The translations under genes and the position numbers were made by a program. Shown one piece after another: positions 27,654-44,674 of a stretch of DNA of 64,000 bases (positions are counted from its first letter, which is position 1; each line of letters starts with the position of its first letter). Under the pieces are notes generated by a model. It made no database searches, was not told where the DNA came from, and saw only the letters and a list, made by a program, of their open reading frames with translations. This stretch comes from Nesterenkonia lacusekhoensis (GTDB lineage: Bacteria; Actinomycetota; Actinomycetes; Actinomycetales; Micrococcaceae): assembly GCF_017876395.1 (NCBI RefSeq), contig NZ_JAGINX010000001.1, positions 1,798,001 through 1,862,000 on the forward strand, in the 5' to 3' direction.

Positions 27654-28726
27654 CGGATCTCCTCGGAGGTCTCGGCAGCAAGGGGTTCAGCGGTGCCGGC
27701 AGGTTCGTCAGGCTCGGCTGTTTCGGCAGCGACCGGTTCGTCCTGAGCGACGTCGCCGCCGTACCAGTGGTCGATCAGCGCACGCGAGATCGAGGATCTG
27801 GGTGGGATCCGCAGCCGCTCCGCGGCGACCTCACGATGCAGCTGCTCGCGGGTGAACCAGCGGACCTCTCGGATCTCGTCATCATCGGCGCAGGCCTGGC
27901 GGGGGTCCTCGACCACCGCCATATAGCCCAGCATCAGCGAGCGCGGGAAGGGCCAGGACTGGGAGCCCATGTACTGCACGGAGCGGACCCGCACTCCGGC
28001 CTCTTCGCCGACCTCGCGCAGCACCGCCTCCTCCATAGATTCTCCGGCCTCCACGAAGCCGGCGAAGGTGGAGAACCGATGGGCCTCCCAGCGGTGGGCC
28101 GAGCCGAGCAGGATCCGCCCCTGGTCATCGACGACGGCGGTGATCACCGCTGGGTCCGTGCGCGGGAAGGTCTCGGCCTCACAGCCGGGACAGAAGCGTA
28201 TCCAGCCGGAGTGCCGCACCTCGGTGCGGTGGCCGCACTGGGCACAGAAGGGCGCCGAGCTGTGCCAGGCGGTGACCGCCAAAGCCTGGGTGAACAGAGC
28301 GGCGTCGATCGGATTCAGCGCCGCACCGATCATCCGGAAATCAGCCCAGTCCTCCGGGCCCTCGGCTGAGGTGGGTTGGGCTGCTGAGGCGGGCGGGGAC
28401 GCCGCCTCGGGCTGGGTGTCCGCGGCCGGCGTCGGGACGGCGACTACGTGGCTGCGGAGCTCCGGGCCGCCGGCCTGGACCTCGCCGAGGTAGACCGCCC
28501 CCTCGGGCGGCTGGGCTGCGATCTCCGAGGGTGAGCTGAAGCGGATGGCGAGCGAGCCGGCGTCGTCGGTGCTGACCGGTGTGCTCCGGTCCCTCAGCCG
28601 CAGCACGCGGGTCTGCGGGTCAGACCAGACCTCATCCAGCCAGCCCTGCCGGCGCCTGTCCGCATCCCGACGATCGATCTGATGTGCGGCAAGAGGCAGG
28701 GCGAACAGTCCGGCGGAAGAGTGCAT
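27650..28726 (-). CDS. nudC: NAD(+) diphosphatase NudC-type Nudix hydrolase
   Basis: 358 residues. A zinc ribbon (CAQCG near 160, CPGC near 178) precedes the Nudix box GFVEAGESMEEAVLREVGEEAG (about 222-243). The NADH-pyrophosphatase signature follows as SQSWPFPRS, which differs from the usual SQPWPFPxS at one position. The enzyme cleaves NAD(H) to NMN(H) and AMP and may remove NAD caps from RNA. Both ends carry low-complexity Glu/Pro/Ala tails. The ATG at 28726 is preferred because TACCGT lies 6 nt upstream; a GTG at 28756 is possible. It overlaps uvrD2. Confidence 0.9.
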   Translation of the reverse strand: MHSSAGLFALPLAAHQIDRRDADRRRQGWLDEVWSDPQTRVLRLRDRSTPVSTDDAGSLAIRFSSPSEIAAQPPEGAVYLGEVQAGGPELRSHVVAVPTPAADTQPEAASPPASAAQPTSAEGPEDWADFRMIGAALNPIDAALFTQALAVTAWHSSAPFCAQCGHRTEVRHSGWIRFCPGCEAETFPRTDPAVITAVVDDQGRILLGSAHRWEAHRFSTFAGFVEAGESMEEAVLREVGEEAGVRVRSVQYMGSQSWPFPRSLMLGYMAVVEDPRQACADDDEIREVRWFTREQLHREVAAERLRIPPRSSISRALIDHWYGGDVAQDEPVAAETAEPDEPAGTAEPLAAETSEEIR

Positions 28727-28732
28727 CCCTCT

Positions 28733-28738
28733 ACGGTA
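28733..28738 (-). promoter_or_regulatory. Candidate -10 element TACCGT for nudC
   Basis: On the minus strand TACCGT is followed by AGAGGG (6 nt) and the ATG at 28726, so transcription would begin at or next to the start codon. Confidence 0.4.
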
Positions 28739-28793
28739 TCGCTCACCGAGGGACACCCGCGCAGAAATCCCCCGTTCTGTGGATGACGCCCCA

Positions 28794-28799
28794 TAGGCT
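28794..28799 (+). promoter_or_regulatory. Candidate -10 element TAGGCT for the phosphotransferase gene
   Basis: TAGGCT is followed by 7 nt (GGTGGAC) and the GTG at 28807, the same layout as for the gene at 24925. Confidence 0.45.
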
Positions 28800-28806
28800 G
28801 GTGGAC

Positions 28807-30354
28807 GTGCGATGGAACTCGATGGAACTGGCCGCCATGGCCACTGCAGCCGTGCCCGGGCTCTCCCCCACCGGGGTGGCCGCAGCAGCTGACGACGCCC
28901 GGGACTTCACCGCTGCCATCGTCCACGACGCCGAAGGCAACCGGTGGCGCATCCGCTCCCCTCAGCATCAGGAGGCGGCGATGCGCCTGGAGACCGAGCT
29001 GCAGGTGCTGCGCGGCTTCTCCACCGCCATCCGTGCCGAACTTCCCTTCCGCGTCCCCAGCGTGGCCGGTGCGGTCCGCCGCGGCGAGATGCGCACCTTC
29101 GTCTATAACCATCTTCCCGGCGCCTCGATGGGGCTGACCGAGCTCACCCACGGCCCGGCCGGGCTGATCGATGACATCGCACGGACCATCGCCGCGATCC
29201 ACGACCTGAGCGATTCGGTGGTGGATCACGCCGACCTTCCGCGCTATTCGGCTGAGCGCTACCGCCAGCGCCGCCTCAACGAGCTCGACCAGGCGGCCAC
29301 CACAGGCCAGATCCCCTCGCTGCTGCTGCGGCGCTGGGAGCACGCGATGGAGGACCAGCAGCTCTGGGACTTCGAACCCACCGTCACCCACGGGGACCTG
29401 CACGAGGACAGCCTGCTGATCGAGGGCGAGCGCGTGGTCGCCGTGACCGGCTGGACCGATCTGCACATCGGGGACCCTGCCGACGACTTCGCCTGGCTGA
29501 CCGCCGTAGGAGCACCGGCCTTCCGGGACCAGGTGCTGCAGGCCTACAGCCAGCACCGCTCCGAGACGCCCGATCCCTGCCTGATGCGCCGCGCCGCCCT
29601 GACCGCGGAGTTCGCATTGGCTCAGTGGCTGGTGCGGGGCAAGGCCACCGACAACCAGGAGATGGTGGATGAGGCGCTGGGGCTGCTGAACCAGCTGGCC
29701 TCAGACATCGAGACCTACGGCGGTCAGCCCATCGCACTGACCCCCATGGAGGAAGAGGTCAAGGCACCTGCTGAGACTCAGGATTCCCGTCCGGTGGCCC
29801 GGATCGGGGCCCACGCCACCGTCGCCGACCATGGCGGATGGGCTGAGTCCGGCGAGGGCGACGCCGAACCTGCGGTGATCACCGACTCCTCCGCCGACCA
29901 GTCCGCGGCGCAGCAGCCAGCGCAGGATCAGCCGGCGCAGGACGAGTCGACACAGGACAGGTCGACACAGAGGCAGGCGGTCGACGCCGACGGCGAGCCC
30001 ACCGGCCAGGTGCCCCAAGTCCCCCAGGGGCGCTGGATCGACCCGGATGACGAGCCGACCGGTCAATTCCCCGCCGTGCCTGCTGAGGAGGAGCCCACCG
30101 GGGCCATCCCGCGAGTCTCTGAGGAGGAGGCTGCGGCAGCCTCGGAGCCCGCCACGACCTCCGGATCGCTGCCGATCCAGCCTGATCAGCAGACCGAGCA
30201 GCGGGCGAAGCAGAAGAACTTCTTCCCGGCCCAGTCGGCGAACTCGGCACGCTCTGCTGAGTCGGCGGCTGAGGCGGCCGAGGAGACCGAGGAGACCGAG
30301 GCCGGCGGCGAGTCCATCTACTCGCGGCATCCGGGCCTGCGCCCTCCTCAGTAG
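28807..30354 (+). CDS. APH-like phosphotransferase with long repeat-containing acidic tail
   Basis: 515 residues from the GTG at 28807, which follows TAGGCT-N7; an in-frame ATG at 28783 is the alternative. The N-terminal 310 residues form an aminoglycoside/macrolide phosphotransferase-like kinase. The catalytic loop is VTHGDLHEDSLL (about 195) and the metal-binding segment is HIGDPADDFAWL (about 220). The last 200 residues are disordered and rich in Gln, Ala and Glu, with three copies of an EPTGxxPxV motif near 396, 416 and 427. The gene sits next to nudC and uvrD2, as often in related genomes. Antibiotic resistance cannot be claimed, and the substrate is unknown. Confidence 0.8.
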   Translation: MRWNSMELAAMATAAVPGLSPTGVAAAADDARDFTAAIVHDAEGNRWRIRSPQHQEAAMRLETELQVLRGFSTAIRAELPFRVPSVAGAVRRGEMRTFVYNHLPGASMGLTELTHGPAGLIDDIARTIAAIHDLSDSVVDHADLPRYSAERYRQRRLNELDQAATTGQIPSLLLRRWEHAMEDQQLWDFEPTVTHGDLHEDSLLIEGERVVAVTGWTDLHIGDPADDFAWLTAVGAPAFRDQVLQAYSQHRSETPDPCLMRRAALTAEFALAQWLVRGKATDNQEMVDEALGLLNQLASDIETYGGQPIALTPMEEEVKAPAETQDSRPVARIGAHATVADHGGWAESGEGDAEPAVITDSSADQSAAQQPAQDQPAQDESTQDRSTQRQAVDADGEPTGQVPQVPQGRWIDPDDEPTGQFPAVPAEEEPTGAIPRVSEEEAAAASEPATTSGSLPIQPDQQTEQRAKQKNFFPAQSANSARSAESAAEAAEETEETEAGGESIYSRHPGLRPPQ

Positions 30355-30459
30355 CATTCCTCACGTTCCGCCGTGGGCGGGAATGATCCCCACAGAGCTG
30401 TGGTTGGTGCCAGACGTTCCACGCCTCCACCCACCTCGACCACCGCAAGGGGACACTTC

Positions 30460-31701
30460 TTGGCGCAGCCGACACCTCCTCAGGAGACCACTGAGCATCT
30501 CGACGAACCGCGGATGTCTCGTCGGCAGATCGCCCTGGCCATCCTGGCGCTGTCTGTCGGAGGATTCGCGGTCGGGGTCACCGAGTTCGCCATCATGGGG
30601 CTGCAGCGCGAGGCTGTGGCCGACCTGTTCGGCGAGATCAACGAGCAGACCAATGCCCAGGGCGGCATGCTGGTCACCTTCTATGCGCTCGGTGTGGTGA
30701 TCGGCGCCCCCGTGCTGTCCCTGCTGGGCGCCAAACGGGAGCGGAAGTCGTGGGCGCTGTTCCTGCTGGCTCTGTTCGCCGGTGCTCACGTGTTCAGCTA
30801 CTTCGCACCCACCTTCGAGTCCATGCTCCTGGGCCGGTTCCTCTCCGGATTGCCCCACGGTGCCTACTTTGCGACAGCGGCGCTGATGGCCGCGCATATG
30901 GCCGGGCCGGCCAAGCGGGCCCGCGCGATCGCCGTGGTGCTCTCCGGGATCGCCATCGCCAACCTGACCGGTGTGCCAGTGGTGACCGCGATCGGCCAGG
31001 CCTTCGGCTGGCGCTGGATGTTCGCAGCGGTGGCACTGATCGCAGTGCTGACCATGCTGGCGGTGTGGGTCTATGCTCCGCGTCAGCAGGCCCCGCGGGG
31101 CGCTTCCATGCGCGGAGAGCTCAGCGGCCTGGCCAACCAACGGCTGTGGGTGGGCATCGCCCTGGCGATGGTCGGCTTCTCCGGGATGTTCGCGATCTAC
31201 TCCTACATCTCCCACATCACGGTGGAGGTCACCGGCCTGGGCGAAGGCGTGCTGCCCTGGGTGGTGTTCATCTTCGGCTTCGGCATGGTGGTCGGCAACT
31301 TCGTGGGCGGCTGGGCCTCGGACAAGTCAGTGCTGGGCACTGTGCTGGTCGCGATCGCCCTGGTGGCCACGTTCATGCTGATCTTCGGACTGGTGGCCCA
31401 CATCCCCTGGCTGATGGTGCTGCTACTGTTCCTGATCGGCTCCTCGGCCAGCTGCCTGGGCCCGTCCATGCAGACCCACCTGATCGACACCGCCCCGAAG
31501 GCCCCGCAGCTGGCAGCCAGCTTCCACCACTCCGCGTTCAACGCTGCCAACGCCATGGGCGCCATGATGGGCGCCGGAGTCATCGCCGCCGGCTGGGGCT
31601 ACCGCGCCCCCGCCTTCGCCGGTGCGACCACGGCTGTGCTCGGCTTGGTGATCACCCTGTATGCGATCTACCTGACCAAGCGGGCCGGCGAGAAGGTGTG
31701 A
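30460..31701 (+). CDS. MFS transporter (DHA1 family, AraJ/efflux-type)
   Basis: 413 residues with twelve hydrophobic segments. The first is IALAILALSVGGFAVGVTEF. The loop after helix 2 has LSLLGAKRERKSW, the MFS motif A position. GRFLSGLPHGAYFATAALMAAHM and FGWRWMFAAVALIAVL match sugar/drug efflux members such as AraJ. The TTG at 30460 is chosen because AAGGGGA lies 6 nt upstream; an ATG at 30513 would remove 18 residues. The substrate is not predictable. A weak hairpin (GGTCCG/CGGACC, 31704-31722) follows the stop. Confidence 0.88.
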   Translation: MAQPTPPQETTEHLDEPRMSRRQIALAILALSVGGFAVGVTEFAIMGLQREAVADLFGEINEQTNAQGGMLVTFYALGVVIGAPVLSLLGAKRERKSWALFLLALFAGAHVFSYFAPTFESMLLGRFLSGLPHGAYFATAALMAAHMAGPAKRARAIAVVLSGIAIANLTGVPVVTAIGQAFGWRWMFAAVALIAVLTMLAVWVYAPRQQAPRGASMRGELSGLANQRLWVGIALAMVGFSGMFAIYSYISHITVEVTGLGEGVLPWVVFIFGFGMVVGNFVGGWASDKSVLGTVLVAIALVATFMLIFGLVAHIPWLMVLLLFLIGSSASCLGPSMQTHLIDTAPKAPQLAASFHHSAFNAANAMGAMMGAGVIAAGWGYRAPAFAGATTAVLGLVITLYAIYLTKRAGEKV

Positions 31702-31747
31702 GTGGTCCGGTGGGTGCGGACCTGCCTGGTGGGCCCGCCCGGGTGAC

Positions 31748-31897
31748 TGCAGACCGTGGGAATCTGCAGATCCGGTAACGAAAACCCTGCAAACGCGGTA
31801 ACGAAAGGCCTGCAGATCCGGTAACGGGATCATGCAGACCGGGAACTCAAGTCCATGCAAAACCGGAAGTCGACCGCATGCATAACCGGAAAGCGCC
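31748..31897. repeat. Seven degenerate TGCA-headed repeats of about 23 bp
   Basis: TGCA starts occur at 31748, 31765, 31788, 31811, 31833, 31856 and 31879, so the spacing is 17, 23, 23, 22, 23 and 23. The shared core is TGCARAnCCGGwAA, often continuing as CG. Copies 2 to 4 are most alike (TGCAGATCCGGTAACG), and similarity fades toward the defence genes. The array is noncoding and ends just before the stop of the first island gene. Multiple short repeats of this kind are known at IS21-family termini, so a solo transposon end is one explanation; an array of protein-binding sites is another. Confidence 0.75.
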
Positions 31898-31900
31898 TGG

Positions 31901-32629
31901 TCAGGAGGGTTCGCTGCTGGGTGTGACCTCCGCGGCGCAGGCATCCACGAACCGAGAGAGCGCCTCAGAGTCTTCATCCCCGAGCCAGTACATGCCAGTG
32001 CGGTAGGTGATGATCTTCATCAGGCGCCGTGCGAACTCACGGCGCTCCCCTCCTGTCAGGCCGCTGCCGACGATCGCTGAGGCCACGGCATCGGACAGAG
32101 CCGGGCTGAGGCTGGTCGTCTGGCGTTCCAAGATCTGCACGAACTCATCCTCCGCCAATCCGTGGTCGCCGCCGAGGAACCGTGGCGAGAGGACGAGTCC
32201 ACGCCGCCAGAGCCGGCGCAGAGCATGACGTCGGCTGTCTCCCCTGTACCTCTCCCGAGTCTTCGGCGCGAAGCGGCTGATGACCAGATCAGGAAAGACG
32301 ACGAAGGTCAGGTAGTCCCACACGTCGCCGCGCCCCGCCTCGGCTGGCAGGATGCGCAGGTGCCTGCGCAGCGCCAGGGACATCCGATGGTCGAACTCGC
32401 GGGTCGCATCGCCGCGCACTCCATCGAGCTCAGCCAGAACAGCCGCCCTGAACGCGCTCAGCTGGGCATCGTCGACGGCGGTCCCGCCAGTGGGATCCAC
32501 GGTGTACTCATCCGATTCCACAGCCAGCGGCGCAGGAACCTGCCCGTCCTGGAGAGCCGCCCAGCGCAGCTCCACCGCCTCCGGCTTGAGCCGGCGCTGC
32601 AGCAGCGCTTCGGTTCCAGCGTCCATCAC
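31901..32629 (-). CDS. Accessory protein of the Z1/GHKL island (DUF6339-like)
   Basis: 242 residues, last gene of the five-gene minus-strand operon, overlapping the upstream gene as ATGA. It is a mostly helical cytoplasmic protein without transmembrane segments. The most distinctive part is DVWDYLTFVVFPDLVISRF near residues 102-120, followed by the Arg-rich RYRGDSRRHALRRLWRRG. A C-terminal part follows with LMKIITYRTGMYWLGDED. I believe this pattern belongs to the family catalogued as DUF6339, found in similar loci, but I cannot confirm that here. No catalytic motif is visible, so it may be a structural or regulatory subunit. Confidence 0.6.
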   Translation of the reverse strand: MMDAGTEALLQRRLKPEAVELRWAALQDGQVPAPLAVESDEYTVDPTGGTAVDDAQLSAFRAAVLAELDGVRGDATREFDHRMSLALRRHLRILPAEAGRGDVWDYLTFVVFPDLVISRFAPKTRERYRGDSRRHALRRLWRRGLVLSPRFLGGDHGLAEDEFVQILERQTTSLSPALSDAVASAIVGSGLTGGERREFARRLMKIITYRTGMYWLGDEDSEALSRFVDACAAEVTPSSEPS

Positions 32630-33510
32630 AGACCACCCTTCCAGTAGCCGGTTCCCGCGCTGAGACGCATCTCGAACTCACGTGGGTTCTCGTCCAACAG
32701 CTTCAGCGCCTCCTTCAGACCGGTCGACATGCAGCTCCGGGCGATCTGGTCGGCGGCCGCCACCAGCGACTCCGGATGGCGCTCGATGGACCGCTCGATC
32801 GCATCGCCGCGAGCAAGCATGTCCACCAGGGACCGGACCTCCCGGATGAGCGCTCGCGCCACATCGACCTTCATCGAGGCCTCCACCGCCGACGGGGCGG
32901 AACCTTCGAGGAGAGCCCCGACCACCTCGAAATCGGTGTTCAGGTGCAGCTTCGCATGGACGCTCATCGGAGCCTCCGGCTCAGAGGCGTCCACCTCCAG
33001 GAACCACGGAGCCTGTGCCATGCGCAGCTCGGAGAAGGAATAGGCCACTGTCGGGAAGCGCGACCTGTCCCCCACCGTGATCTTCTGACGGCGGCGCTCC
33101 TGGAGCCTCACCGGCAGACCGAAGTCGGCGTTGTCATGGTGAGCGATGACCGTCGCGTCGAGGAGGATCTCCTGGCCGAGTTCGGCCCCGTCCGCAGAGA
33201 TACCGATGCGTGCACCGAGATTGCCGTGAGCGTCGTAGGAGAGCCCGCTCTTGGCGACTCGGCGCAGGTTCGTGTCCGGTGACAGAAGCTCTCCGACGAC
33301 CTGCACCTGCTCCGGCGCATAGCCGGCTGTCTCGAGCGAAGAAGCGTCGATCAGGGTCGACAGGCTGAAGTGCATCTCACTGTGCAGATCCAGATGTTCC
33401 TCGACCTCTTCCGCGACGACCATCTGGTCTCCGACGGTGAAGCCCCACCTGGACCATCTCACCGATTCAGGTGAGAGACGCGCGTAGGGATACAGGACCT
33501 GTCTAGGCAT
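32626..33510 (-). CDS. Accessory protein of the Z1/GHKL island, no recognised domain
   Basis: 294 residues, start overlapping the GHKL gene's stop by 8 bp and stop overlapping the next gene as ATGA. It is predicted soluble. The first half looks beta-rich (WGFTVGDQMVVAEEVEEHLDL, LGARIGISADGAELGQEILLDATVI) and the C-terminal third is helical (ALIREVRSLVDMLARGDAIERSIE). Its end, FEMRLSAGTGYWKGGL, is the kind of segment that could be conserved. I do not recognise a family. The fixed position between the GHKL ATPase and the last gene suggests a dedicated subunit. Confidence 0.6.
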   Translation of the reverse strand: MPRQVLYPYARLSPESVRWSRWGFTVGDQMVVAEEVEEHLDLHSEMHFSLSTLIDASSLETAGYAPEQVQVVGELLSPDTNLRRVAKSGLSYDAHGNLGARIGISADGAELGQEILLDATVIAHHDNADFGLPVRLQERRRQKITVGDRSRFPTVAYSFSELRMAQAPWFLEVDASEPEAPMSVHAKLHLNTDFEVVGALLEGSAPSAVEASMKVDVARALIREVRSLVDMLARGDAIERSIERHPESLVAAADQIARSCMSTGLKEALKLLDENPREFEMRLSAGTGYWKGGL

Positions 33511-35467
33511 CAGCGGTCACCTTCTCTCCGGTGACGTTGAGGTCGACGGCGGTTCCGCGGGGCACCTCGACCCGGAGGCTCACCCGCTCCCCCGGCTCGA
33601 CCTGACGCTGGTGCCGCGGTCCTCGGGTGACCGCCTCCGATCCCACAGGCCAGATGCGGACATCCTGCTCCTCCAGCTCCTCGTAGCCGACAGCGCTGCG
33701 TGCCCTGACCTCCAGGGCGAGCCCGATCGGGCTCGACGGATCATCTCCGGACACATCGAGCTCGACGGCGAAGGTCTGCCTGCCGTCGACTCCGTCCACC
33801 GGCGAGGCAGAGGTCAGGACGACCAGCTCCTTCCGGCCGTTCCTCGGATCCCGGCCAGCGGTCGACCGCCGGCTCCGGCTGCTGCCGGCGTCCTCCGTCA
33901 TGGTCTCCGGCACGAACCCGCGCAGAGTCTCTGCCACCCGCAGAGTCGACTGCCCGGCCACCTTGGGCGTGCTCCGACGCCTGCGCAGGAACTCCTTCAG
34001 CTTCTGATCCACGCTGCGCTGCGCCCGTTGGACCGTGATGCTCGCCTCCTGATCGGTGGCGTGACCGGCGGTCCAGCTGTCATGGGCCGGAGGCTCAGCA
34101 TCTGCGAAGTGCGCATCGAACTCCGCACGCGGCTTAAACACGGCGTACCAGTTCCAGGCATCCGCATCGATCTCCTGACGCTCGAGATACTCCACCACGA
34201 GTTCAGCATCGTGCCGCATATTGCACAGCGCATTGGTCGCCAGGGCGTCATGGTCAGCTCCCGGATCGATGAGCCGATGCTGCCGGGCCACGGCGAGGTC
34301 ACCGATATGCAGGAGCCGACCTTCTCCGCGACGTCGGATCGGATAGCAGACGATGTTCAGAAGCTGCCCGTCCGCAGTGGGGATCGTAGTCTGCGACTCA
34401 GCCGCGGCGTCCTTGCGCTGATGCTCACGCAGTGCGTTGAGCGTGTGCTTATAGGCCTCGAAGTCTGGGGCTCCTGCGATCACATCCGGATCGGGATCGT
34501 CGTCTCCGCCGATGTGGAACTTCATCGGAGGCTGTCCCGTCTCAGGAAGGGGCGTCAGCTTGGGCCAGGCGAATTTGGCAGCGGCAGCGGCGACCTGACG
34601 GCGCAGCTCCATGAGGTCCGCTCGGTTCTGCACCCGCCCTGCTCCTTCGAAGCGCCGTTCATGGTGCTCCTCCGGATCGTCCGACTCGTCGCTGGCCTCC
34701 TTGGCCACCAGCGGGTCGATCACCATGATCGAGGTCCCGGTCTCGCCCTCTTGGAAATGACGGGAGAAGAGCTTCTCGCCGAGAGCCTTCGCCTCCTCCC
34801 CGACGATGGGAGACAGGCCGGAGCCGCCGTTCATCCGACCCCACCAGTGGACTCCCGTATAGCGGTGTCCGCCGTCGGAGTAGTCGTCTCCATGGCACAC
34901 CCCGATCAGACGGTGCTCCAGCTCGCCCTCTGGGTTCCGGCAGACCGTCCAGTAGACGACCGAACGGGAGGCTCCCGCGGTGAAGGCGGCCGTCTTGCCG
35001 AACCCATAGGTTCCTCCGCTTCCGGATCCCGCCTGCTTGGTGGAGCCGATGGTGAAGACGAGCTTCACGAAGTTCGAGGTGTGGTCCACAGCGTCGCTGC
35101 GCGGGTCCAGCGGTCCGTCGAGTCCGGTTGTCTCTCGGTCGTAGACCTCGAGGGTCGCGAAGTTCGCACGCCGCAGCGACTCCTCCAGGGGCGACGTCGG
35201 CGGAAGGGCCCTGAATACCTCTTCGCGCAGCGTCCTGGCCCTGGGCTCAGGGATGAAGCGCGCAAATGCGCCATACTCCGGACGCCGGCCCTCCAACCGC
35301 GCGTCCCAGGTGTTCTGGATCGTCTCTCGGACGAGTAGCTCGACGACGGTGAGCTTGGTCGCTCCCATCAGCCGTCCGAGCCCCTGACCGCTGACCGCTC
35401 CGTGGTCGTGCTGTTTGGAGTACCGGTCCAGCGGGCTGCCCCGGCGATCTGTCACCCCTGCGATCAT
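33503..35467 (-). CDS. MORC/MutL-like GHKL ATPase (paraMORC)
   Basis: 654 residues. The GHKL ATP-binding fold is shown by the N-box LLVRETIQNTWDAR (Glu48, Asn52, Asp55), the G1 motif YDRETTGLDGP (Asp110 and Gly115) and the ATP-lid glycines GSGSGGTYGFGKTAAF (149-162). Such ATPases clamp DNA or remodel complexes in an ATP-dependent manner. Iyer, Abhiman and Aravind (2008) linked prokaryotic MORC relatives to restriction-modification gene neighbourhoods. The C-terminal half has a basic segment (LKEFLRRRRSTPK) and a beta-rich end. The gene overlaps its neighbours by 4 bp and 8 bp, so a complex with the Z1 and PD-(D/E)XK proteins is likely. Confidence 0.82.
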   Translation of the reverse strand: MIAGVTDRRGSPLDRYSKQHDHGAVSGQGLGRLMGATKLTVVELLVRETIQNTWDARLEGRRPEYGAFARFIPEPRARTLREEVFRALPPTSPLEESLRRANFATLEVYDRETTGLDGPLDPRSDAVDHTSNFVKLVFTIGSTKQAGSGSGGTYGFGKTAAFTAGASRSVVYWTVCRNPEGELEHRLIGVCHGDDYSDGGHRYTGVHWWGRMNGGSGLSPIVGEEAKALGEKLFSRHFQEGETGTSIMVIDPLVAKEASDESDDPEEHHERRFEGAGRVQNRADLMELRRQVAAAAAKFAWPKLTPLPETGQPPMKFHIGGDDDPDPDVIAGAPDFEAYKHTLNALREHQRKDAAAESQTTIPTADGQLLNIVCYPIRRRGEGRLLHIGDLAVARQHRLIDPGADHDALATNALCNMRHDAELVVEYLERQEIDADAWNWYAVFKPRAEFDAHFADAEPPAHDSWTAGHATDQEASITVQRAQRSVDQKLKEFLRRRRSTPKVAGQSTLRVAETLRGFVPETMTEDAGSSRSRRSTAGRDPRNGRKELVVLTSASPVDGVDGRQTFAVELDVSGDDPSSPIGLALEVRARSAVGYEELEEQDVRIWPVGSEAVTRGPRHQRQVEPGERVSLRVEVPRGTAVDLNVTGEKVTADA

Positions 35468-36489
35468 CGTGCTTCCTCCCCAAATGCTCTGAGCGCCGCC
35501 TGCCCCTCGTCATCGGTCAGCGGCGAGCCGAGTGCCGCCAACGACATCTGGAACGTCACGTCTGAGACTCCCAGCAGCAGCTCTCCGTCGATGCGCGAAG
35601 CCTTCAGTCCCGGGCTGTCCTCTGTGATGGGCCACCAACGGATCTGCCGCACGGCGAAGCGCGTGGTGCTGTGCTCCGCGTTGCCCACCACATAGTCGGA
35701 TGCCTCCAGCGCCTCGGTCAGCTGCTGCTCAGGGATGCCCACAGCGAGCAGCCGCTGCACGAGCGAGTCGACGCTGTCACCCTCAGGGGCGACCTCCACC
35801 TCGACGAGGGCGAGGTGGCAGACGGCATGACCGGCGGGGTCCAGCTGGCCGAGACCGTGCACCGTCACCCGGTCCCCGCCCACCTGCGTCGTGGTCTTGA
35901 CCTCGATCCGCGCAGCGTCGCTGCGAAAGTCGTGACGCTCCCGGTCTGAGCCCTTCCACCATGCAGCTGCCTGGGGGCCGTGCACCTCAGCGAGCATCTG
36001 GAGCATCTTCAACTCTCCGAAGATCGCAGCGAGCTCAGGAACGGTCTTGGGCCTCTTCGCCATCTCCAGGAGGCGCCGCCAGTCCCGGGCCGCCTCCGCC
36101 ACAGCACCATCTGCGGAAGCGCCATCGACGATCCGCACTCTGATGTCCTCCAGGAAGCGCCGGAAGGCCAGGTCCAGCGTGGGCAGCTCGCACTCCAGCT
36201 TCAGGAAATGGCTTCCCGAGGAATCCTCCCCCTCCGAGGAGAGGCGCATCTGCATGACCGATACGTCGATCACCGAGCTGATCCGGAATGCCCGGGCACG
36301 GCTCTCCGCCACCTTCAGAAAAGCGATCGCCCTGTTCGTCCCATCTGTGGCGAGGTAGAAGGCCTCCGCCGAGCCTTCGACGCTCACCGGGACGACGCTG
36401 AAGACGTCTCCTCCGTCGGAGAGCACAGTCCCCGGTCCTGCACCGGCGGCTCGCTCGAACGCCTGATCGACATTGGCTGCGAGACTCAT
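35464..36489 (-). CDS. PD-(D/E)XK nuclease-like protein of the Z1/GHKL island
   Basis: 341 residues. The centre holds a PD-(D/E)XK nuclease pattern: Glu in FGELKMLQML (about 159), Asp in RHDFRSDAAR (about 187) and the Glu-x-Lys in RIEVKTTTQ (about 196-198), followed by a beta strand and helix. The fold is that of restriction endonucleases. The flanking N-terminal region (FYLATDGTNRAIAFLKV) is unassigned. Start and stop each overlap neighbours as ATGA. It is the only obvious candidate nuclease of the five-gene operon and probably makes the restriction cut. Confidence 0.8.
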   Translation of the reverse strand: MSLAANVDQAFERAAGAGPGTVLSDGGDVFSVVPVSVEGSAEAFYLATDGTNRAIAFLKVAESRARAFRISSVIDVSVMQMRLSSEGEDSSGSHFLKLECELPTLDLAFRRFLEDIRVRIVDGASADGAVAEAARDWRRLLEMAKRPKTVPELAAIFGELKMLQMLAEVHGPQAAAWWKGSDRERHDFRSDAARIEVKTTTQVGGDRVTVHGLGQLDPAGHAVCHLALVEVEVAPEGDSVDSLVQRLLAVGIPEQQLTEALEASDYVVGNAEHSTTRFAVRQIRWWPITEDSPGLKASRIDGELLLGVSDVTFQMSLAALGSPLTDDEGQAALRAFGEEAR

Positions 36490-39221
36490 GAGAGGTCCTC
36501 TCCGACGTAGTCACCCTCATCGTCAACGAACAGCGATGGAGCTTCGTCCTCGTCCTCCTCCGGTTCGGTCCAGTGCGGGACGACCCCGACGTAGACCTCG
36601 TTGTCACGCTGAAGCCCCGTCGGATCGGAAGGTGAGATCATGCCGAATCCGGCGATATGATCCTCCGCCTTCATCTTCGTACGAGTCGTCTGCTCCTTCT
36701 TCTGCCGCGGCTCAGAATCCTTGTCGACGAGGTAGAGGACGAGCAGTCCACGCCCGGATGCCAGGCTCCGCCGATACTCAGCGGCTTCCTTCTCAGAGCA
36801 GCGCGACGGTAGGGACTCATATCCGGGTGTTCCGGCCTCCTTCAGAATCCGCAGGTCCGCGAGATGATCCTGCGACGACATCAGCGCGCGGATCCCCACT
36901 GCGTCAGGATCATCCGAGATTGAGCTCGGCTTCTTGCCCTCCTGGAGCGGAGCACGGTTGACCGTCGCTACCTCGTGCCCGGCGGCCGTCCATCGGGCAT
37001 CGCGACCGCCGCTCATCACCACGACGTTCCAGAGGTTCTCACGGCCCGCGGCGGGGATCCTGCCCTTCGTCACCTCTGAATCCCATTTGTCCAGCCACTG
37101 GAGCACCTGACCATCCTCGAGCAGGCGATGCGTCCGGTGCGGCCGGTATCCCTCGAGGAAGCGGCGGACGCCCTCGTAGGGAACACCCTCGAAGACGATG
37201 GACCCGCCGTCAGCAGCCTTCACCGGCGAGTGTCCGCTCTCAGCCATGGAGCCGAGGAAGGCGCTGGTCGTCTGCAGGTTCTCACGCAGGATCTCAGGAC
37301 GGGTGTCGAAGGTGTTGGTCTCGACGCGCCGTCCCTCCAGACCGAGATGGAGAGTCTCGACATGCTTCATCTTGCCCGCGCCGGTGATGCTGAGGCGCCC
37401 CGGGTGCTGCTGGACGCGGATGCCCACCTGCTCGGGGGTCTGCCCATTCTCACGCATGATGTCGATGTCCTGGCGGACCTGAGCCTCGACGTCTGCGAGG
37501 AACTGATAGTCGCCGGCGAGCCCCTCGCTGAGCCACAGGCGGACCAGGTCGCCGTAGCCCGGTCGGAAGCCAAACCACCGGCCCATCTGGAGAAGGGTGT
37601 CATAGGTGGCGGAGCGCCGCGCGAAGTAGGAGACGAAGAGACCCTCGAGGGTGAGGCCTCGGGAGAGGGTCGTGCCTCCCACGATGATGGCGGTCAGGGG
37701 CTTGTCCCGGTAGGAGACCCTCTCCTCCTCCTTCTCCGAGCCGTTGTCCACGTAGACGCGCACTGCGGTCAGAGCGCTTCGGATGGGTCCCTCGAGCTGG
37801 CGGAAGGTCAGCTGATCGGCGTCCTCCGGCTGGAGCTCGGAGACTCGGTCTCCCTCCTCCACGAACATCCTCTGGAATCGGCTGAGGTCCTCGTGGACCT
37901 TGACCTCGTCGCGCAGCTGACCGAGGAACTCGACGATTGCGTCCCTGTGGGCGAAATGAGGCTCCACCTTATGCGTGGTGTGCACCAGCATGCTCGAGTG
38001 CTTGTCCTCCTGTCCCCTGAAGCGCCGGATGGCGGTCGCGAGGATGAACCACACGATGGCGTCCTCCAGGGACGGCGGAACATCCGGCTCGAAGGGTTCA
38101 GCATGCTCTCCCTTCCGCTTGGAGGGTGGGACCACCCGGGCACGGTCCTCATCGGAGATCGAGCGCACGACATCCAGATAGTCGTCGCCGTGCTCAGGAT
38201 CAGCGTTGCGGATCGTGGAGCCGAAGAGCTGAGCCGTCCCCAAGTAGCCCTTCGGCTCAGGCAGGACGTGGATGAAGTCTTTGGGGTAGAGGGACCCGGG
38301 CGAGTCCGGCTCCATGAAGAGGTTGGCGAAGGGCGTGGCCGTGTAGCTGACATAGCTTCCGTTGCCCACCAGAGACCAGATGTCGCGGAGCTTCTCGTGA
38401 ATGGTGGACATCTCTTCGTCCTTCACCGCTGAGTCCGGCGAGGCCTGATCGGACTCGTCGTCGAGGATAAGGATCGGGTAGTCCCGCCGCCGCTCTTCGG
38501 GAATCTCGCGGAGGAATGCTTCCAGGTTCTGCAGCCTCGTCTTGTTCTTCTTGACCACGGCGAGAAGACGCTGGCCGCTGTTCACCAGGCTTCTGGCGTT
38601 GGCAGCCTCCTTGCCCATGTCGGCCGTCTCGTCGGTCATGCGGTACCAGGCGCCGTCGTCCACCCCGAGGTCGGAGTCGAGGCGCATCTGTGTCTGCTTC
38701 CGGAGGTTGCCGTGGATGCCTGCCAGAACGATGACCATCTTGTACTGAGCGTCAGCGGCCTTCGCGATCACGGAGGCGTAGCTGGCCGTCTTGCCGCTCT
38801 GGACGTAGCCGATGACGAGGCCGCGGCGGCGGGCATCCGCTGCCGCGGGCTCTGCGAGCCGCTCGACGATCTCCGTGGAATGCTTGTCGATCTGATCCAC
38901 CGCGCCGCGGAGGCCGCCGGACTCCATCCTGCGGCGCAGCCGGCCCCAGATGTAGCCCTCTTCCTCGCGGGGTCCTTCATACCAGGTGCCGACCTTCTCA
39001 TCGAGGATCTGACTCTCGCTGGTGGGGACGAGCTGGAGCCCCTGCTCATACTGATCCCAGAGCTGCTGGATCGCCTCTCCGAGCTCTCCGAGATCGCCGA
39101 ACTGGTCAGCGGCTCTGCGGAAGGCCTCCACCCGAGAGACCCGATCCCGCTGCAGAATCATCTCTACCTGTTGCCGCGCAGCCTCGCGGTACTTCTCCGA
39201 GGCAGTCTCAGTGCTGGTCAC
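36486..39221 (-). CDS. Z1 domain-containing P-loop ATPase
   Basis: 911 residues, first gene of the operon. A helicase-like P-loop domain has Walker A GYVQSGKTASY (about 138) and motif II LILDDESDQAS (about 250), with VSYTATPFANLF as motif III. The second half contains the Z1 domain, including GGTTLSRGLTLEGLFVSYFARRS and TLLQMGRWFGFRPGYGDLVRLW with its conserved Arg. Z1 (PF10593) was defined next to SF2 helicases in restriction-type neighbourhoods. It could translocate on DNA or switch the GHKL ATPase and nuclease. The GTG start has GGGGA upstream. A 207-bp gap separates it from the divergent methyltransferase. Confidence 0.88.
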   Translation of the reverse strand: MTSTETASEKYREAARQQVEMILQRDRVSRVEAFRRAADQFGDLGELGEAIQQLWDQYEQGLQLVPTSESQILDEKVGTWYEGPREEEGYIWGRLRRRMESGGLRGAVDQIDKHSTEIVERLAEPAAADARRRGLVIGYVQSGKTASYASVIAKAADAQYKMVIVLAGIHGNLRKQTQMRLDSDLGVDDGAWYRMTDETADMGKEAANARSLVNSGQRLLAVVKKNKTRLQNLEAFLREIPEERRRDYPILILDDESDQASPDSAVKDEEMSTIHEKLRDIWSLVGNGSYVSYTATPFANLFMEPDSPGSLYPKDFIHVLPEPKGYLGTAQLFGSTIRNADPEHGDDYLDVVRSISDEDRARVVPPSKRKGEHAEPFEPDVPPSLEDAIVWFILATAIRRFRGQEDKHSSMLVHTTHKVEPHFAHRDAIVEFLGQLRDEVKVHEDLSRFQRMFVEEGDRVSELQPEDADQLTFRQLEGPIRSALTAVRVYVDNGSEKEEERVSYRDKPLTAIIVGGTTLSRGLTLEGLFVSYFARRSATYDTLLQMGRWFGFRPGYGDLVRLWLSEGLAGDYQFLADVEAQVRQDIDIMRENGQTPEQVGIRVQQHPGRLSITGAGKMKHVETLHLGLEGRRVETNTFDTRPEILRENLQTTSAFLGSMAESGHSPVKAADGGSIVFEGVPYEGVRRFLEGYRPHRTHRLLEDGQVLQWLDKWDSEVTKGRIPAAGRENLWNVVVMSGGRDARWTAAGHEVATVNRAPLQEGKKPSSISDDPDAVGIRALMSSQDHLADLRILKEAGTPGYESLPSRCSEKEAAEYRRSLASGRGLLVLYLVDKDSEPRQKKEQTTRTKMKAEDHIAGFGMISPSDPTGLQRDNEVYVGVVPHWTEPEEDEDEAPSLFVDDEGDYVGEDLS

Positions 39222-39383
39222 GGGCGTCCCCTCTCTCTGGTCGAGCGATCACGATGACGATATCCGCTCCCTCGGACATGGATCTGTGCCATCTCGCTGT
39301 GTGACGCACGTGACCAGGGCTTTCAGACGTTAGGATGTAGCCGAATCCCGGTGGTGTCACGGAACCATGTCCCCGGCTCCGGA

Positions 39384-39389
39384 TAGGCT
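39384..39389 (+). promoter_or_regulatory. Candidate -10 element TAGGCT for the methyltransferase-vsr genes
   Basis: TAGGCT in the 207-bp gap 39222-39428 would start transcription near 39396, giving a leader of about 33 nt that contains the GAGGAG ribosome-binding site at 39418-39423. For the opposite direction TATCGT (39257-39262, minus strand) is a weak candidate for the Z1 operon. I see no gene and no clear controller-protein box in this gap. Confidence 0.4.
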
Positions 39390-39428
39390 GCATGGTGAAC
39401 GACGTCCGCCCCGCACAGAGGAGTAGCC

Positions 39429-40547
39429 ATGCACCATACATTCAGGATGGGAGAGTTCTTCTCCGGTCCCGGTGGGATGGCCCTCGGCGCATGGCAGGCC
39501 GCTCAAGATGTCAGCCGGGAGACGGGCGAGCAGATCTCGCTGATCCACCAGTGGGCCAACGATTTCCACCCCGACACCGAGAAGACCTACCGAGCCAACA
39601 TCCGGCCCACGGAGTTCATCTCGGGCGACGTCCGTGAGATCGATCCCAAGAGCCTTGTGCGCGTGGACGGATTCGCCTTCGGGTTTCCCTGCAACGACTT
39701 CAGCCAGATCGGTGAGCACCGGGGCCTCGACGGCGAATTCGGGCCGCTGTATGAGCAGGGAGTCGAAGTTCTGAAGACTCACCAGCCCAAGTGGTTCGTC
39801 GCGGAGAACGTCACCGGTCTGATCAGCTCCAACGACGGCCGAGCCCTGGAGAAGATCCTCGAGGCGATGGCTTCTGCGGGCGACCACGGCTACCACCTGG
39901 TGCCCCATATCTACCGCTTCGAGGAGTACGGCGTCCCGCAGAAGCGCCGCCGGATCATCATCGTCGGCATCCGGGGCGACCTCGCCGAGCACATCCGCTT
40001 CCAGGTGCCCGCTCCGACGACCCCGGCCGAGCCGATCTCGGTGGAGAAGGCGTTCGCCGACATCCCCGCCGATGCTCCCAACCACGACCTTCCGCGCCAC
40101 AATCAGACCGTTGTGGAGCGGCTCAAGCTGATCGCCCCCGGGGAGAACGCGTTCAACGCCAAGCTGCTCCAGGAGGATGAGCAGCTGCGCCTGAATGTGA
40201 AGGGCGCGACGCTGAGCAACATCTACCGGCGCCTGGAGTCCGATAAGCCCAGCTACACCGTCACCGGGTCCGGCGGAGGCGGCACCCACATGTACCACTG
40301 GGAGGAGCCGCGTGCTCTCACCAACCGGGAGCGTGCCCGCCTCCAGAGCTTCCCGAATGACTTCCGATTCCATGGAGGACCGGCCAGTGTGCGCAAACAG
40401 ATCGGCATGGCGGTGCCAGTGGAGGGCGCGCGTGTGATCTTCGAGGCGCTGTTCCGGACGTTCCTCGGAAAGTCTTACCCAACCGCCGAGCGGAACATGA
40501 ACGACGTCTCGCCAAAGCCGCTCCGGGAAGAGTCTCTCCTGGTCTGA
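39429..40547 (+). CDS. DNA (cytosine-5-)-methyltransferase
   Basis: 372 residues with the ordered motifs of m5C methyltransferases. These are SAM-binding FFSGPGGMALG (motif I, about 10), the catalytic Cys in GFPCNDFSQIG (motif IV, Cys88), FVAENVTGLI (motif VI, about 125), QKRRRIIIVGIR (motif VIII, about 171), and RLQSFPNDFRFHG with RKQIGMAVP (motifs IX-X). The target-recognition region lies between VIII and IX; the target sequence cannot be read from it. GAGGAG lies 5 nt before the ATG. With the divergent Z1/GHKL/PD-(D/E)XK operon it would protect self DNA. A vsr gene follows after 5 bp. Confidence 0.95.
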   Translation: MHHTFRMGEFFSGPGGMALGAWQAAQDVSRETGEQISLIHQWANDFHPDTEKTYRANIRPTEFISGDVREIDPKSLVRVDGFAFGFPCNDFSQIGEHRGLDGEFGPLYEQGVEVLKTHQPKWFVAENVTGLISSNDGRALEKILEAMASAGDHGYHLVPHIYRFEEYGVPQKRRRIIIVGIRGDLAEHIRFQVPAPTTPAEPISVEKAFADIPADAPNHDLPRHNQTVVERLKLIAPGENAFNAKLLQEDEQLRLNVKGATLSNIYRRLESDKPSYTVTGSGGGGTHMYHWEEPRALTNRERARLQSFPNDFRFHGGPASVRKQIGMAVPVEGARVIFEALFRTFLGKSYPTAERNMNDVSPKPLREESLLV

Positions 40548-40552
40548 GCTGC

Positions 40553-40990
40553 ATGGAGGGCTCTGCCGGAGACCGCAGCTCCTGGGCGAGCTCTGTCCAC
40601 GCGCGGCTGAGCATGCAGGCCAACCGCGGCCGTGACACCCGGCCGGAGCTGCTCGTGCGGGCCGCCCTGCATGCCCGAGGCTGGCGCTATCGGGTGAACC
40701 ACCGGCCGCTCACAGCCGACAGGCGCCGCACCGTCGACATCGCCTTCACCCGTAAGAGACTCGCGGTGCTGATCGATGGCTGCTTCTGGCACCGCTGCCC
40801 GGAGCATTTCGTCATGCCGAAGACCAACCTCTCCTACTGGGAGGAGAAGATCGCCGGCAATGTACGCCGTGATGCGGAATCCAACGCCCTCCTCGAAGGG
40901 GACGGATGGACCGTGCTGCGATTCTGGGAGCACCAGGATCCTGCGACCGTGGTCGAGGAGATCGAGGCGTCCCTGAGGAAGCTCAGCTGA
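40553..40990 (+). CDS. vsr: Very short patch repair endonuclease Vsr
   Basis: 145 residues with the Vsr/PD-(D/E)XK core. RRTVDIAFTRKRLAVLIDGC contains the catalytic Asp, FWHRCPEHF holds the zinc ligands and catalytic His, and NVRRDAESNALLEGDGW follows. Vsr nicks beside T-G mismatches that arise when 5-methylcytosine deaminates. It therefore limits mutation at the target of the methyltransferase encoded 5 bp upstream. No Shine-Dalgarno sequence is seen, so translation is probably coupled. The stop lies 6 bp from the convergent adnB stop. Confidence 0.93.
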   Translation: MEGSAGDRSSWASSVHARLSMQANRGRDTRPELLVRAALHARGWRYRVNHRPLTADRRRTVDIAFTRKRLAVLIDGCFWHRCPEHFVMPKTNLSYWEEKIAGNVRRDAESNALLEGDGWTVLRFWEHQDPATVVEEIEASLRKLS

Positions 40991-40996
40991 TCTCGC

Positions 40997-43900
40997 TCAC
41001 CCGAAGTGCTTCTGCGCCTTGGTGATGATCGCCTCCAGCTCCTCCTCGCTGGGCAGGTTCTCTGCCGGCAGGTCGACTCCGTGGTCGATGTAGAAGAAGC
41101 TGGCTTCGATCTGCTCCAGCGGGATCTCGTAGAGGCGGCTGAATGCCAGGCGGTAGATCGCCAGCTGCAGCTGCTTGGTGCGCAGCTCCTCCCCCTGCGG
41201 GACGCGGCCGGTTTTCCAGTCCACCAGCTGCCAGCTGCACCGACGCATCTGCTGGTTGCGCTCCGCGCGCGGAAGCTTCTCCCAGCGCTCATGGGCGGCC
41301 ACGTCAACGTCGGAACCATCAGGATGACTGCCGAAGACGGCGTCGATCCGACCACGCAGCATCACTCCACCCACCGAGGTCTCGATGGGGATCTCCATGG
41401 CGAAGATCTGCCGCTGCGCCCACCGGCTTGCCCGGAAGTTCTCCCGTGCCTTCGGCAGGTCGAAGACCACATCCAGTTCCTCGTCGCCGCGCATCGGCTC
41501 TTCGATTTCTGGGAAGGCCGCACGGGTCTCGTAGAACTCCTCCACCCAGGAGTGCACCACCGTGCCGCGGCGGGCCTCTGCAGACGGCCTGCGCGGCACC
41601 GGACGACGAGTCTGCTCGGCCACGTCCTGAGCATCGCGGGCCAGGCTCACGAAGCGCGAGGCGCTCATATGCCCTGGCAGCGACGGTGGTTCCAGCCCGG
41701 CCTGCTGCTGACGGGCGCGCCGGATCACCCACAGCGCTTCCTGCTGCCAGGTAGGCTGCTCGTCTCGGCCCTCGGCTGGGCCCTCTGCAGCCTGGGTCTC
41801 GGTGTCGAGACGCTCAAGCTCACGGCGCACCAGCTCCGCGGCACGCCGCATCGGCTCACGCCGACCCACTGCCCCTGCAGGAACCCCCGACTCCTCGGGT
41901 AGCTCCTTGCGCTGATCGACTGACTTCGGATCCTCCGGATCGGCCTTCTGCACCTCAAAGGTGGTCGCGGCCAACGGCTCCAGCGGGTCATAGGGCCACT
42001 GAGCCACCACCAGATGGTCCTTGAACGGGTTGGACTTCTTGTCCTCCACCTCTGCCCAGCCGAGTTCGCCGACGTCGCTGTCGAGTGCCTGAGCAGCCTC
42101 ACGGACCTCCAGAAGGAACTCTGAGGGCTCATCGCCCCCGGCCGCTCCGTAGAAACAGGCGCCGGTGCAGATCAGCAGCGACTTGGCGCGGGTGACCGCC
42201 ACATAGGCCAGCCGCCGCTCCTCCTCCCGACTGAACTCCTCACAGTCGGCCTTGAAAATGCTGCCCTCATACTTCTTGGACGTCCCGACACCGGCCGAGC
42301 ACCCCCAGAACTGTAGAGTCTCCTGCTCCGAGTCCCATTGCGGGATGGACGCGGCGTCTCCGCGCAGCGGCCAGGGAAGCTGGCCGTTGTTCGTGGTCCA
42401 GCGATCAGTCTGTTTGGAGGGGAACTTGCCCTCGCGCATACCGATCACGGCCACCACATCCCACTCCAGGCCCTTCGAGGCGTGGACGGTCAGCAGCTGG
42501 ACCGCCCCGGGACGCGGGTCCGCCTGGGCCTGCTCCAGGCCGCGCTCCTTCTTCTCCGCGGCCTCCAACCATTCCAAGAAGCTGGAGAGATCCGCACGCC
42601 CCTCCGTACTGGTGAAGCTCTCCGCCTGCTCGATCAGGGCATCCAGCTGGCGGGTGGCATGATGCTGCTCCTCCCAGGGCCGGGCCGCGACCTCCACGTC
42701 CAGTCCCGTCTCCGAGACCACCCGCTGGATCAGCGTCCCCAGATCCAGGGAACCCAACTGCCGCAGCAAGCGCAGGCCGTCCCGCGCCCGGACCAGACGC
42801 TGAGCACCCACCTCGGTGAAGCCATAGCGTTCCACCGCCTTCGACGGGTCGTCCGGCAGCGCGTCCAAGGCCTCCACCAGGGAAGCCATCTCCTCCAGCT
42901 CCTGCGTCACCTCGGAGAAGCGGTCATCCGCGTCCTCCGCCTCAGAGGCTCCGCCGGTATTCCCCGCCGAGGCCTTGCGCCGCCAGCTCTCCAGGCCTTT
43001 GGCCGCCCGACCCAAGGCATAGAGGTCCCGCGGACCGATCCGATAGCGCGCACCGCCCAGAATCCGCAGCAGGGCGTCCGAGCGCTTGGGGTCGGCGATC
43101 ACCCGCAGATAGGCCAGCACCTCGGCGACCTCCGGGGTGGACAGCAGTCCGGAGAGTCCGAGGAACTCATAGGGGATCCCCTGCCGGCGCAGTGCCGCGG
43201 CCGCCGTCTCCAGCTGAGCCCGGGTCCGGGCCAGCACGGCATAGGTCTGTTCCTCCTCCGAGGCCGCCATGGCCGCAGCCATCTGCCCGGCCACCGCCTG
43301 GGCCTCCTCCTGCTCGGTGGCGAACCAGCCGCAGCGCACCGCTCCGTCCTGCACGGCGCTCGGGGGCACAACGCCGCCGCGGTCTGGGGTGATCAGCGGC
43401 TTCAACTGTCGACGCAGGTGCGCTGTGCTGCGGTGCCACGGCTTCTCCGGATGCTCAGCGTTCTGGGTGAACGGCAGCACCAGCTGATTCGCCATGGAGA
43501 GGATATGGCGTCCGTTGCGCCAGGCGATTGTCAGCTGACGGGTGGCCGCCGGCGAAAGCTCTGTCGACTCGGGGTCGATGCGCGGGAACTTCTGCGGGAA
43601 GTCGAAGAGCTGCCCGGCCGAGGCTCCGCGGAAGCCATAGATCGACTGGTTGGGGTCTCCCACAGCCGTGACCGGGTGACCGGCCCCTGCCCCGGTGGCC
43701 CCGGTGCCGTAGAGGCTGCTGAAGAGCTCGAGCTGGGCGTAGGAGGTGTCCTGGAACTCGTCCAGCAGCACCACCGAGTACTTCTCCCGCTCCGACTCCC
43801 CCGCCGAGGGCACCTCGGCGGCGATCCGTGCCGCGAAGCGCAGCAGGTCTCCGTAATCCATGACATCGCCGTGGAGCTTGGTCTGCTGGTAGCGCTGGGC

Positions 43901-44674
43901 CAGCTCGGCGGTCTCCCGGCGCAGCCGCAGCGTATCGATCAGACCCTGTTGGCCGCTGTTGGGCTTCTTCGCCTCGGCCTGGATGAGCGCCTCCACCCGG
44001 GCGAGCTCGGCATCCAGGGCAGCGGCGACGGCGTCGGGCTCCACCAGGTGCTCGGCGCAGTCGGAGGTCAGCTGCAGGACGTTGTCAGCCACGGTGCTGG
44101 CCCGGGCCCCGGCCTCCACCAGCGCCTGACCCCGTTCGTAGCCGCTGACCAGCTCGGAGACCATCTGCCAGGCCTGCGCTTCGCCGATCAGCTGGGTCTC
44201 CGGCTCCAGCCCGATGTGCAGCCCGTATTCGCTGACCAGGCTGTTGGCGTAGGAGTGATAGGTGGAGATGGCCGGGGTCAGCAGCCCGTCCAGGTCCTGG
44301 ACCTCCCCGTGGTCCTCCTGCTCGGGCATGAGCTCCTGCGGATCGATCAGCTCCGCATCCACCAGCCTCTTCAGCTGGCGGGTGATGCGTTCACGCAGCT
44401 CGCCGGCGGCCTTGCGGGTGAAGGTCACCCCGAGGATCTCATCCGGGCGCACCCATCCGTTGGCCACCAGGAAGACCACGCGGTCGGCCATCGTCGCGGT
44501 CTTGCCCGAGCCGGCTCCGGCGACCACCAATGTCGGCTCCAGCGGGGCTTCGATCACCGCACGCTGCTCAGCGGTGGGCCGATGGGCCCCGAGGCGGTCG
44601 GCGATCTCGTCGGCGCTGATGCGCATCGGGGCAGAGCGGGACTGGGCCGCGGAGGTCTGAAGAGCTGTGGTCAT
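40997..44674 (-). CDS. adnB: AdnB-like SF1 helicase-nuclease
   Basis: 1225 residues from the ATG at 44674, which overlaps the adnA stop as ATGA. It has a UvrD-type motor with Walker A VAGAGSGKTATM (about 50), VLLDEFQDTSYAQLEL (motif II), GDPNQSIYGFRGA and VAVTRAKSLLICTG. A RecB-type nuclease domain at the C-terminus has the Asp and Lys in WQLVDWKTGRVP (about 1151). Actinobacterial AdnAB processes double-strand breaks for recombination. AdnB carries the main motor and one nuclease. It lies directly beside the defence island, which ends 6 bp from its stop. Confidence 0.9.
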   Translation of the reverse strand: MTTALQTSAAQSRSAPMRISADEIADRLGAHRPTAEQRAVIEAPLEPTLVVAGAGSGKTATMADRVVFLVANGWVRPDEILGVTFTRKAAGELRERITRQLKRLVDAELIDPQELMPEQEDHGEVQDLDGLLTPAISTYHSYANSLVSEYGLHIGLEPETQLIGEAQAWQMVSELVSGYERGQALVEAGARASTVADNVLQLTSDCAEHLVEPDAVAAALDAELARVEALIQAEAKKPNSGQQGLIDTLRLRRETAELAQRYQQTKLHGDVMDYGDLLRFAARIAAEVPSAGESEREKYSVVLLDEFQDTSYAQLELFSSLYGTGATGAGAGHPVTAVGDPNQSIYGFRGASAGQLFDFPQKFPRIDPESTELSPAATRQLTIAWRNGRHILSMANQLVLPFTQNAEHPEKPWHRSTAHLRRQLKPLITPDRGGVVPPSAVQDGAVRCGWFATEQEEAQAVAGQMAAAMAASEEEQTYAVLARTRAQLETAAAALRRQGIPYEFLGLSGLLSTPEVAEVLAYLRVIADPKRSDALLRILGGARYRIGPRDLYALGRAAKGLESWRRKASAGNTGGASEAEDADDRFSEVTQELEEMASLVEALDALPDDPSKAVERYGFTEVGAQRLVRARDGLRLLRQLGSLDLGTLIQRVVSETGLDVEVAARPWEEQHHATRQLDALIEQAESFTSTEGRADLSSFLEWLEAAEKKERGLEQAQADPRPGAVQLLTVHASKGLEWDVVAVIGMREGKFPSKQTDRWTTNNGQLPWPLRGDAASIPQWDSEQETLQFWGCSAGVGTSKKYEGSIFKADCEEFSREEERRLAYVAVTRAKSLLICTGACFYGAAGGDEPSEFLLEVREAAQALDSDVGELGWAEVEDKKSNPFKDHLVVAQWPYDPLEPLAATTFEVQKADPEDPKSVDQRKELPEESGVPAGAVGRREPMRRAAELVRRELERLDTETQAAEGPAEGRDEQPTWQQEALWVIRRARQQQAGLEPPSLPGHMSASRFVSLARDAQDVAEQTRRPVPRRPSAEARRGTVVHSWVEEFYETRAAFPEIEEPMRGDEELDVVFDLPKARENFRASRWAQRQIFAMEIPIETSVGGVMLRGRIDAVFGSHPDGSDVDVAAHERWEKLPRAERNQQMRRCSWQLVDWKTGRVPQGEELRTKQLQLAIYRLAFSRLYEIPLEQIEASFFYIDHGVDLPAENLPSEEELEAIITKAQKHFG

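Follow-up and report, generated by a model that had tools for sequence, protein, structure and literature searches.

Nesterenkonia lacusekhoensis carries a seven-gene island within a 64,000-nucleotide stretch of contig NZ_JAGINX010000001.1 (positions 1,798,001 to 1,862,000; hereafter, the window). It combines a Z1/SFII-type helicase, a PD-(D/E)XK nuclease, a GHKL ATPase of predicted paraMORC2 type and two accessory proteins, ACC1 and ACC2, which together form a five-gene core, with a C5 cytosine DNA methyltransferase and a Vsr-type T:G mismatch endonuclease. We infer a role in defence and consider it an evenly balanced proposition that the island is a restriction machine driven by ATP and gated by 5-methylcytosine. 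Systems of this kind were known previously, so far from computer predictions alone: neighbourhoods of this type were already described computationally in Iyer 2008, and a literature search found no experiment on such an island. Two observations are new here. A C5 methyltransferase is nearly constant beside the core, yet core and methyltransferase distances are poorly matched; and ACC2 carries lineage-specific tails, including a pseudo-methyltransferase domain in Streptomyces.

Constancy and exchange of the methyltransferase

Methylation partners were surveyed in the 53 loci (numbered with the prefix L) flanked by 4 kb or more on each side, with a distance limit of 3.5 kb. Within this limit, a C5 methyltransferase accompanies the core in 50/53 loci and Vsr in 44/53; the three loci without a C5 methyltransferase there are L028, L063 and L076. 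The core genes themselves co-occur, as the sequence-only reading had expected: ACC1, counted by a local hidden Markov model (HMM), is a positional partner in 79/81 loci, and in pairwise comparisons of the 61 loci with all seven genes, distances within the core correlate at r = 0.81-0.96. Core distances correlate less closely with those of the methyltransferase (0.42-0.45) and of Vsr (0.39-0.49). The nearest neighbour agrees with the rest of the core for 37-44 of the 61 loci when core proteins are compared, but for 22 with the methyltransferase and 14 with Vsr. At 40% identity the methyltransferases form seven clusters, and the low core-methyltransferase correlation may partly reflect saturated distances between unrelated enzymes; the values for Vsr, which is one short family, are just as low. 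The same discordance is seen within Nesterenkonia, where the window core is 61-73% identical to that of N. cremea (L008) and 33-49% to that of N. populi (L116), whereas the window methyltransferase is closest to N. populi (66%, versus 51% for N. cremea).

Effects of methyltransferase exchange on the core were compared in 101 close pairs, 47 with an exchanged methyltransferase, over 445 core windows; ACC2 was limited to its first 320 residues with gappy columns removed, so that its tails lay outside the comparison. No swap-linked recognition segment was marked in the common part of the core, the largest swap effect being 0.076 (mean -0.006, standard deviation 0.030). The top windows were nuclease 105-143 and 220-249, ACC1 79-105 and GHKL 49-73, and a weak swap signal may be present in the core. 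The pairs are not independent, and loci of Streptomyces, Lentzea or Amycolatopsis take part in 37 of the 41 stricter swap pairs.

Conserved features of the core proteins

In the helicase motif DTLLQMGRWFGFR, Q545 and R548 are kept in 82/82 sequences. The nuclease core, reported as visible by the sequence-only reading, is recovered both by a DUF4420 match and by its conserved residues: E159, E196 and Q215 are kept in 77/77 sequences, and D187 and K198 in 76/77. For the GHKL protein, the N box (RExxQN[ST]WDA), G1 (DRxTxGL) and G2 (GGTYGFGK) motifs are kept in 36 aligned relatives. Across 84 sequences, E48, N52, D55, D110, G115, G152, G155 and G157 are invariant, K158 is present in 83, and E458 and H462 of the EPPxHD stretch (ExxxH) are present in all 84, which bears out the earlier GHKL assignment. 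In its passages on paraMORC2, Iyer 2008 identifies the type by an ExxxH motif located C-terminally within the S5 domain, and names cyanobacteria and Gram-positive bacteria as its main hosts. The window protein thus appears to be a paraMORC2-type ATPase, its S5 fold being only predicted; on the latter question, a PDB sequence search gave no match at E 1.

Accessory proteins and their tails

None of 34 ACC1 members matches a Pfam or PADLOC model. Among 30 ACC2 members, 18 match PF19866 (DUF6339), and three models of PADLOC PDC-M33C match 9, 5 and 1; the window's own ACC2 matches neither, so the proposed DUF6339 assignment holds for the family and not for this member by direct match. Profile searches of ACC1 and ACC2 against the PDB found nothing below E 0.1.

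ACC2 open reading frames (ORFs) extend into a tail of >40 aa in 23/81 cases, and in 11 of the 23 this tail is a pseudo-methyltransferase. The latter is the Streptomyces form, a C5-methyltransferase domain without the catalytic cysteine (11/11) that adjoins an intact enzyme. Other tails, which are 93-532 aa long and belong to several unrelated types, were seen in L066, L085, L021, L023, L024, L039, L044, L070 and L081; L066 weakly matches a transcriptional regulator domain, at an E value of 0.0049 that falls short of the cut-off. Related tail pairs are common to different methyltransferase clusters (L021/L023 and L024/L039) or lie within one cluster (L066/L085).

A cysteine-less C5-methyltransferase-like family with LPR in motif IV, either fused to ACC2 or standing alone, was read in L138-L167 (Streptomyces) and in L052, L059, L065, L068, L069, L072, L073, L074, L078, L079 and L080, with an intact C5 methyltransferase adjacent in 28/30 places read. 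The idea that the pseudo-methyltransferase recognises the target site of the neighbouring intact enzyme was weakened: between two Streptomyces groups (6 and 5 loci), intact enzymes are 29% identical on average and pseudo-domains 57%, the latter value being in line with the core (55-72%).

Methyltransferase, Vsr and partner modules

In the window methyltransferase, motif IV (GFPCNDFSQ) holds the catalytic Cys, and motif VI reads AENVTG. Its methylated motif was not predicted because its nearest solved relative, M.HaeIII (95 bits), is too distant. Vsr scores 117.1 bits against TIGR00632 (cut-off 97.85) and keeps D62 and H80 in 61/61 and C77 in 62/62 sequences. The host genome contains a second, partial C5-methyltransferase match (G000 C1:411716-412060; 29.2 bits, profile positions 2-111).

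Elsewhere, MORC-type HATPase_c_3 proteins lie next to or near the partner module in 17 loci (local profile; Pfam-confirmed in L029, L031 and L034), an EcoRII-C-like partner occurs in four (local profile; Pfam-confirmed in L022), and a FokI/AlwI-type partner in L008 and L047; none of these profiles matches within window positions 28001-45000. An AspBHI-N/HNH restriction nuclease stands beside the core lacking a C5 methyltransferase in L063 (13756-15528). The cyanobacterial loci L049 (7256-13057), L050 (14145-19944) and L056 (9349-15114) hold a second, opposite-strand set comprising GHKL, an unassigned ~343-aa protein, ACC2 and a C5 methyltransferase.

Comparison with known systems

The MZA system, reportedly from Gao et al. 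in 2020 and cited in PMC9523054, differs from the island: MzaC and MzaD matches lie far below the NCBIfam equivalog cut-offs (369.7 versus 1500 bits and 58.9 versus 420), the AIPR protein (MzaE) has no match among the seven island proteins at E 1, and the GHKL protein matches no Mza model at E 1. In the PADLOC candidate PDC-M33, PDC-M33A is matched by the window GHKL protein over residues 97-211 only, and PDC-M33C by the ACC2 relatives noted above; a literature search for the name PDC-M33 found no paper. The CglI/NgoAVII restriction-modification systems differ in their nuclease, which in CglI combines PLD with a B3 recognition domain (PMC4267653). The island nuclease is of the PD-(D/E)XK type, none of the seven proteins gives a PLD or B3 Pfam match at E 1, and the island additionally has the GHKL protein and two accessory proteins.

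The neighbourhoods of Iyer 2008 share an SFII helicase with the DThhQXuRhFG motif, a restriction endonuclease-fold nuclease with E-D-ExK, a GHKL family with ExxxH, a C5 methylase and Vsr. In the relevant passages, ACC1 and ACC2 are not named, nor are a fixed five-gene core, methyltransferase exchange or a pseudo-methyltransferase. The stated composition of the putative 'Type I' defence system of Miller 2022 (PMC9523054) also fits the island, and from it we infer their identity; three additional genes are unnamed in that text, and the section on the system gives neither mechanism nor assay. The defence and restriction-modification interpretation of the sequence-only reading is partly supported: the composition fits predicted restriction-modification neighbourhoods, and the defence role and mechanism stay conjectural.

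Alternative explanations

The methyltransferase and Vsr could be an orphan pair or their own restriction-modification module (elsewhere with its own nuclease), beside a core that acts as a separate defence machine with a fixed trigger unrelated to methylation. We regard such independence as possible but unlikely: the 50/53 association far exceeds the ~1% expected from how dense methyltransferase matches are in the window's genome, with two over 2.74 Mb, and in 11 loci a methyltransferase-like domain is fused to ACC2. It is quite improbable that the triggered core also destroys the host's DNA and that methylation serves as a safety catch. Abortive-infection AIPR genes do occur in related MZA systems and in the 'Type II' system of Miller 2022 (PMC9523054), whereas the island has no AIPR match among its seven proteins at E 1 and no toxin-like gene.

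A repair pathway, in which Vsr nicks T:G mismatches and the MutL-like GHKL protein, helicase and nuclease finish repair in a host without MutL, appears very improbable, even though the GHKL-helicase-nuclease set is made up much like MutL-UvrD-MutH (Iyer 2008) and Vsr accompanies the core in 44/53 loci. A PF01119 match is absent from the window's genome and present in 11/14 control genomes, but loci with the core are also known from Caulobacter, Prochlorococcus, Cyanobium and gammaproteobacteria, and Caulobacter and Synechococcus have PF01119 matches. These four groups generally possess MutL. Defence fits better than repair because the distribution is patchy (ACC1 in 6/148 genomes of the class) and the genes form an inserted island.

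Island layout and distribution

Gene coordinates and family matches confirm the proposed arrangement of five minus-strand genes divergent from methyltransferase and vsr (Table 1).

Table 1 Features of the island in window coordinates
Feature	Position	Strand	Evidence or remark
ACC2, DUF6339 family, 242 aa, without C-terminal tail in window	31901..32629	-	Family members match PF19866
ACC1, 294 aa, without named family	32626..33510	-	Positional partner in 79/81 loci (local HMM)
Predicted paraMORC2-type GHKL ATPase, 654 aa	33503..35467	-	Conserved N box, G1, G2, ExxxH; PADLOC PDC-M33A E 9e-13
PD-(D/E)XK nuclease (DUF4420), 341 aa	35464..36489	-	DUF4420 E 2.1e-28
Z1/SFII-type helicase gene	36486..39221	-	Helicase motif
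Intergenic stretch between divergent gene sets	39222..39428		Possible regulatory role
C5 cytosine DNA methyltransferase, 372 aa	39429..40547	+	DNA_methylase E 2.6e-68
Vsr-type T:G mismatch endonuclease, 145 aa	40553..40990	+	Vsr E 5.6e-15

A promoter scan reported no sigma-70-like site inside the intergenic stretch, and promoter and terminator scans of the region gave counts at shuffle level (1 versus 0.9; 4 versus 2.4). In 10/14 Nesterenkonia genomes, the flanking MFS and UvrD-type genes converge with 11-1089 bp between them, too little to hold the island; the remaining four have their UvrD gene beyond the short locus. The G+C content is 0.654 in the island versus 0.685 and 0.686 in the flanks, and no direct repeats of at least 9 bases were found between 31681-31960 and 40901-41120. 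Among viral contigs, 18 pattern matches included no relative. Two large minus-strand ORFs of 1244 and 1187 aa adjoin each other at window positions 40997-48234; by eye they are UvrD/AddAB-like helicase-nucleases, and they end 7 bp from vsr.

Implications

In the proposed restriction machine, the methyl mark on cytosine would let the island tell its own DNA from invading DNA, with ACC2 as the probable link to the methyltransferase or the target. In a further, rather doubtful version, the core would have no target sequence of its own and would borrow it from the paired C5 methyltransferase; this enzyme, or a pseudo-methyltransferase or other module on the ACC2 tail, would be a plug-in sensor, and 5-methylcytosine a general self mark. 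The sharing of ACC2 tail pairs between different methyltransferase clusters slightly lowered the already small likelihood that the methyltransferase alone sets the target. Across loci, the five core genes move together as a fixed set, and the gene of the mark-writing methyltransferase is exchanged.
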